Source of the DNA: Candidatus Tectomicrobia bacterium
GTDB lineage: Bacteria; UBA8248
Length of the DNA: 64,000 nucleotides
NCBI GenBank assembly: GCA_016192135.1
Contig: JACPUR010000021.1
Span: 1-64,000, forward strand
Direction: 5' to 3'
The position numbers and the translations under genes are program-made. Shown here one piece after another: positions 12,571 through 13,169 of this stretch; position 1 is the first letter of the stretch; each line of letters starts with the position of its first letter. The notes beneath the pieces were generated by a model. It was not told the DNA's origin. It worked only from the letters and a program-made list of their open reading frames with translations, and made no database searches.

Positions 12571-13125
12571 TCACCTCTTCCCCTTCTTCACCGCGCAGAA
12601 CCCCTGAGCCTCGATGCGGAAGGCGTTGTTGAACTTGGAGCGGAAGTTTTCCATCGCCGCGACGCCGGCGAGCTCCACCAGCTCGTCGTCGGCGAACTCC
12701 GCCCGGGCCCGGGCGAAACACGCGTCGTCGAGGTCCAGGTCGGTGCGGGTCATGCGCTCGGCGAACTCGAGCGCCGCGCGCTCGCGGGGGCTGAAGCGCG
12801 GGTCGGAGGCGTGGGCCTCCAGCGCCTCCAGCTTCTCCCAGTCGATGCCGCTGCTCATCCCACGGGACGAGTTGATGTCCACTCAGAAGGGGCAGCCGTT
12901 GATCTGGGCCACCCGCACGCAGACCATCGCCTTGAGCCCAGGCTCGAGCAGCCCCGAGGTGTTGATGCCCTCCTGGAGCTGGTTGATGCCGCGCATGATG
13001 GTGGGCCGGCGGCCGTAGACGCGCGAGGTGTTGAAGACGAAGCCGTGCTCCCTCTCCTGCGCCTCGAAGAGCTCCCGCGCCAGCGGGTCCTTCGCGGGGA
13101 GAGGGACTTCGGGGATGCGGGGCAT
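12571..13125 (-). CDS. AhpD-like (carboxymuconolactone decarboxylase-fold) selenoprotein with CxxU centre
   Basis: A peroxidase-like redox protein of the CMD/AhpD superfamily. The ATG at 13125 is preceded by AGGAGGAGG. The frame is open to 12571 apart from TGA at 12885-12883. Read through, it gives 184 residues with Sec81 in QINGCPFUVDINSS. Homologues have NGCPFC there, so the resolving pair is Cys78/Sec81. The rest of the fold follows: a helical N-terminus with RRPTIMRGINQLQEGINTSG, and a C-terminal helix set (DWEKLEALEAHASD, LVELAGVAAMENFRSKFNNAF). A SECIS-like hairpin follows the UGA. AhpD-like selenoproteins of this kind are known from marine metagenome surveys. The likely role is peroxide or organic hydroperoxide detoxification. 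It is adjacent to the cyclase gene, apparently monocistronic. Confidence 0.88.
12854..12885 (-). promoter_or_regulatory. UGA (Sec) codon with bacterial SECIS hairpin
   Basis: On the minus strand TGA (12885-12883) is followed by 11 bases, CTCGTCC (12871-12865), the loop CGTG (12864-12861) and GGATGAG (12860-12854). All seven pairs form, one of them G-U. The loop starts 18 bases after the UGA. Confidence 0.8.
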
Positions 13126-13169
13126 GGATGCCTCCTCCTGCCGGTGGGGAACTTCGGTCCGCGGTTACG

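Follow-up and report, generated by a model that had tools for sequence, protein, structure and literature searches.

A gene in a Candidatus Tectomicrobia genome that almost certainly encodes an AhpD-like selenoprotein with a CxxU motif

The window (the whole stretch of 64,000 nucleotides that was analysed) carries on its reverse strand a gene whose internal TGA is, judging from the sequence, almost certainly a selenocysteine (Sec) codon. Once this TGA is read as Sec, the gene almost certainly encodes a redox enzyme of AhpD-like fold. The predicted Sec insertion, the candidate SECIS element and the predicted fold are all well supported. A preliminary description of this DNA had proposed an AhpD-like selenoprotein with a CxxU active site, and the TGA-containing orthologs, the SECIS-type hairpin and the sel genes of the genome agree with that proposal. 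We regard the gene as settled; ordinary annotation would probably split it at the UGA. The coordinates of its features are collected in Table 1.

Table 1. Features of the predicted selenoprotein gene (positions in the window).
Feature	Position	Strand	Remarks
AhpD-like (CMD domain) selenoprotein gene (predicted)	12571..13125	(-)	184 codons + terminal TGA; one internal TGA, predicted to be read through
UGA, almost certainly selenocysteine, residue 81	12883..12885	(-)	second position of C78-P-F-U81
Cys78 codon (TGC)	12892..12894	(-)	first position of the redox motif CPFU; alignment column invariant
Candidate bacterial SECIS hairpin	12854..12871	(-)	7-bp stem, loop CGUG, G at second loop position
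Purine-rich ribosome-binding site AGGAGGAGG	13130..13138	(-)	precedes the ATG at 13125

The gene begins with an ATG at 13125, upstream of which lies a ribosome-binding site of the GGAGG type, and terminates with a TGA of its own (12573-12571). Around the internal TGA the translation reads NGCPF-TGA-VDINSS. The claim that this TGA (12885-12883) occupies the place of the second Cys in an NGCPFC motif was confirmed by the reading frame and by the match to PF02627 (CMD), which scored 55.6 bits (gathering score 23) when the TGA was translated as Cys.

A scan of GTDB genomes yielded 58 loci, and the lineage of the window itself was sampled with 18 genomes of one family (G000-G002, G028-G042). TGA occupies the identical codon in at least 50 orthologs, which belong to one uncultured lineage and to Proteobacteria, cultured Reyranella among them. 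In the window's own lineage, six further orthologs were found at 55-70% identity, all six with TGA. At 38-48% identity, orthologs are present in Reyranella, other Rhodospirillales and several Gammaproteobacteria; all of them have TGA except three gammaproteobacterial ones (L067, L070, L072), which carry a Cys codon (TGC or TGT). Thus, Cys is the sole substitute for TGA among the orthologs, and TAA or TAG never appears at this codon across two very distant groups. The distribution of the specific elongation factor follows the same line: SelB was detected above the curated cut-off in 17 of the 17 TGA-form genomes checked versus none of the three Cys-form genomes. As the branch is common to the culturable Reyranella massiliensis, R. 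soli and R. aquatilis, Sec incorporation should be directly measurable.

The UGA is followed, after 11 nt, by a hairpin consisting of CUCGUCC (12871-12865), the loop (12864-12861) and GGAUGAG (12860-12854). It lies directly 3' of the UGA and has a G within the first two loop bases, which is the geometry of a bacterial SECIS element. One of its seven pairs is G-U. The preliminary description had given seven pairs and a four-base loop 18 nt downstream of the UGA; the pairing and the loop size are right, and 18 nt is the distance to the start of the loop, the stem itself beginning at 11 nt. The fold energy of the hairpin region is ordinary (z -0.49). When the codons for the same peptide were reshuffled synonymously, the identical hairpin turned up in 1.1% of the draws, and 10.6% contained a SECIS-like hairpin of some kind with 7 bp and a G in the loop. 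With this z-score and a chance rate of ~10%, we rejected the hairpin as stand-alone proof of Sec. It nevertheless goes beyond chance, because it is conserved with covariation across the orthologs and the TGA itself is conserved. In the 33 distinct orthologs the stem is found at one fixed distance from the UGA, and pairing is possible in 97% of the cells; sliding the 3' arm by 1 to 3 bases lowers this to 28-55% (the count was made by a script, as the MAFFT alignment of this stretch did not resolve a one-base loop difference between the two groups). Compensatory changes occur at three of the seven pairs (pairs 2, 3 and 4 from the loop), with three Watson-Crick types at each. The loop has four bases in the window's own lineage and five in Proteobacteria.

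No hairpin was found at the SECIS position of the Cys orthologs, and the stem at this position is weaker in a few of the TGA orthologs from Gammaproteobacteria (L028, L068, L075). One ortholog with a diverged C-terminal part (L103/L166, genome G039) possesses an altered hairpin, ACGCATCA-GGCA-TGATGCGT, which is perfectly paired and lies at the same place. Most members of a sister Sec subfamily with the motif CPHU (L104, L105, L113-L116) have a different, longer hairpin, whose loop (GUC) lies 22 nt downstream of the UGA. An Rfam search of the window gave no matches at gathering scores.

The genome to which the window belongs encodes much of the machinery for Sec insertion. The genes selA (540 bits) and selB (389 bits) are located close together on contig C15, and a tRNA-Sec with the anticodon UCA is encoded on contig C28. 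The confirmation of the sel genes, which had been proposed as a check, therefore succeeded for selA, selB and tRNA-Sec(UCA) but not for selD, which was not found in this assembly (G000). The best match, on contig C13, was rejected as SelD; its sequence looks like ThiL and its neighbour like ThiE (both judged by eye). As 14 of the lineage's 18 genomes do have selD (with one TGA inside the gene in each), its absence here is likely an assembly gap. It is a weakness, and no contradiction of the Sec reading.

Two other readings of the internal TGA have to be weighed against Sec. If it were a true stop, the gene would be a pseudogene or would consist of two open reading frames, one of 80 amino acids and one of 103 amino acids from GTG 12882, and the window does offer such a GTG directly after the TGA. 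Yet the codon following the TGA varies among the orthologs (GTG, ATG, ATT, ATC, ATA, GTC, GTT, ACC) and in many of them is no usual start, which means that no internal start is conserved; nor is there a ribosome-binding site ahead of this codon in the window gene. In a Nei-Gojobori analysis, every pair tested had a lower dN than dS, in the first half as well as in the second. Both halves of the window gene are under purifying selection, and the earlier claim that they are conserved in one frame holds on either side of the TGA. The consistent use of TGA in two very distant groups, Cys at this position in genomes lacking selB and a covarying hairpin within the coding frame also speak against termination. 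The preliminary description had named a stop conserved in relatives, with a second open reading frame that has its own start and expression, as the finding that would overturn its proposal; what we see is a start that is not conserved and Cys where SelB is absent. We therefore rejected an internal restart or a pseudogene on account of the variable next codon, the purifying selection and the SECIS covariation, and consider a true stop very improbable. The UGA might, alternatively, be read as another amino acid, through genome-wide recoding or through suppression to Trp or Cys. However, the gene itself terminates in TGA, the genome has selA, selB and tRNA-Sec, the hairpin shows SECIS geometry and covaries, and only Cys replaces the TGA, all of which makes this reading extremely improbable.

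The lineage appears to hold many selenoproteins of the CMD family. A search of its 18 genomes with the window protein produced 109 matches (E up to 1e-10), 90 of which have one in-frame TGA, and G040 alone possesses about ten CMD/AhpD-like genes with an in-frame TGA. In all readable TGA loci with an intact motif, the TGA stands at the CxxU position. For comparison, 63 selenoproteins have been predicted in a Methylomirabilota MAG (PMC13188914). The window contains a second likely selenoprotein gene, encoding a PrdB/GrdB-like reductase (5039-4104, reverse strand). Its in-frame TGA (4490-4488) forms part of a UPLC motif (UxxC) and is flanked by coding signal to either side; the protein matches PF07355 above the cut-off and TIGR04483 below it (113 bits).

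The AhpD-like gene of the window is flanked upstream by a gene for a Cache-HAMP-guanylate/adenylate cyclase and downstream by one for an RNase T-type exonuclease. In the relatives L161-L166, a PEMT/ICMT-like methyltransferase gene precedes the selenoprotein gene, and in several of them a DinB/mycothiol-S-transferase-like gene comes after it, an order that is absent from the window. No peroxiredoxin gene was seen beside the selenoprotein gene in the window or in the relatives' loci examined, and an operon with a peroxiredoxin was accordingly rejected.

The AlphaFold model of the window protein (built with 39 sequences) has a mean pLDDT of 93.7 and a pTM of 0.88. The closest solved folds are the AhpD-like structures 2prr and 6k40 (TM about 0.8), followed by Bmp8 (6ohi/6ohj, TM about 0.77). 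The predicted AhpD-like helical fold is thus well supported by the model. In AhpD and PA0269, the two Cys share a proton relay with a Glu located 12 positions ahead of the first of them and a His four positions behind the second (PMC3141380). These places are taken by Ala66 and Asn85 in the window protein, which so lacks the relay of AhpD proper; the active site of this branch is unusual. Unexpectedly, both relay residues are kept in none of 102 Sec homologs versus 23 of 26 Cys homologs, in counts whose rows are not independent (one query drew the sample, and the tree needs just two Sec/Cys changes). The three Cys forms without the full relay are the gammaproteobacterial Cys orthologs adjoining the Sec clade, in which Glu and His are both absent; relay loss therefore does not strictly require Sec. 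The Sec forms have broken the relay in different ways: eight have lost Glu and kept His, 38 have kept Glu with Asn at +4 and His at +3, and 56 have neither residue (six of these 56 with His at +3). The CPHU subfamily keeps the His, with Pro replacing the Glu. Given the non-independent rows and the sample from a single query, we treat a release of the fold from its relay by Sec as a hypothesis. It is conceivable, if rather doubtful, that Sec let the AhpD-fold family shed the relay variously by branch and that one lineage expanded it into many paralogs, probably with an altered chemistry directed to soft electrophiles and not to peroxides. Comparing the relay residues of Sec and Cys forms is a natural experiment that could show whether an enzyme with the more acidic selenol can dispense with the relay retained by the Cys enzymes.

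Taking these features together, we consider it quite probable that the gene encodes a thiol/selenol oxidoreductase of AhpD fold (about 20 kDa) in which Sec81, inserted through SECIS and SelB, attacks and Cys78 resolves. SelB would bind the hairpin just 3' of the UGA and deliver Sec-tRNA(Sec, UCA) in translation, so that residue 81 becomes selenocysteine and the Cys78-Pro-Phe-Sec81 motif comes to lie at the N-terminal end of an alpha helix. The most likely attacker would be the Sec selenolate, acting on a peroxide, on a disulfide or on some other soft electrophile, although both the order of attack and the substrate are inferred here. The resulting selenenylsulfide, closed by Cys78, would presumably then be reduced by a cellular dithiol. 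With Sec ionised at neutral pH, part of the AhpD relay may be dispensable, Ala and Asn taking the places of Glu and His.

The order of attack is modelled on M. tuberculosis AhpD, whose second Cys (Cys133) we take, following UniProt/HAMAP annotation, to form the sulfenic acid and hence to be the attacking residue; the active-site roles are thus adopted from distant homologs, the TM for M. tuberculosis AhpD being about 0.5. Furthermore, Sec normally sits at the attacking position, where the gain is greatest. Both points speak against the reverse order, with Cys78 attacking first and Sec81 resolving, which was the version of the preliminary description and seems to us unlikely. What favours this reverse order is human sestrin 2, which retains the first of the two positions only and is redox active (PMC11429811). 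Nor does the second-position Sec appear as mechanistically notable as had been suggested: CxxU is the Sec motif given for the AhpD-like and CMD-like families (PMC2398784, PMC13188914), so that Sec at this position is not unusual for the AhpD-like family.

For the substrate, hydroperoxides or disulfides would be the default assumption, and the AhpD of D. radiodurans (6k40) aids H2O2 resistance through its CxxC (PMC8945050). By analogy, a soft electrophile is possible as well, in view of the likeness to Bmp8 and the altered relay. A selenoenzyme of the same fold could indeed perform another chemistry than peroxide or disulfide reduction, such as Bmp8-like reductive dehalogenation or thiol transfer to a small molecule. 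This would fit the closeness of the solved Bmp8 fold, the missing relay residues, which point to an altered chemistry, the DinB/mycothiol-S-transferase-like and PEMT/ICMT-like methyltransferase genes adjoining in relatives, and the many CMD selenoprotein paralogs of the lineage, which suggest varied substrates. Several peroxidase-related proteins reach the same fold score, however, and the DinB and methyltransferase neighbours are kept neither in the window nor in Reyranella. We therefore view such a different chemistry as improbable, though worth bearing in mind, next to the thiol/selenol oxidoreductase proposed above.

AhpD-like selenoproteins with CxxU have been known since the Global Ocean Sampling analysis of 2008, in which two families with 299 and 70 sequences were described (PMC2398784), and AhpD-like proteins with this motif are listed in reviews of 2022 and 2026 (PMC9312934, PMC13188914). 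The later review assigns TIGR01926 to the AhpD-like 1 family (PMC13188914). With this family (the COG2128/YciW group) the window protein shares the AhpD-like domain, the CxxU motif with Sec in second position, a bacterial SECIS and the existence of Cys homologs elsewhere. However, it scores below the cut-off of TIGR01926 (peroxidase-related enzyme; 50.4 versus 81.8 bits), which, as a profile score, suggests a diverged branch. Similarly, the sister family NF053654 (YciW-related (seleno)protein, GroundWater_YciW) matches residues 1-175 of the window protein, i.e., nearly its whole length, but the score of 158 bits is half the required 310; the CPHU subfamily and those orthologs that were tested also remain under this cut-off (109-159 bits). 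Among the solved structures, 2prr, 6k40 and P. aeruginosa PA0269 (2o4d/7xw1) have the same fold (TM about 0.7-0.84) and the same position of the CxxC/U motif, whereas they use Cys, and PA0269 has Glu36 and His55 (PMC3141380) in place of Ala66 and Asn85 of the window protein. The tetrabromopyrrole debrominase Bmp8 shares the AhpD-like fold but only about 20% identity. M. tuberculosis AhpD (1gu9, 1knc) resembles the window protein in its helical CxxC motif and general redox role, and differs from it in chain topology, in the low TM given above and in relay residues that the window protein does not conserve. Based on these profile comparisons, the window protein appears to be an added member of the known AhpD-like selenoproteins, perhaps representing a sister subfamily.
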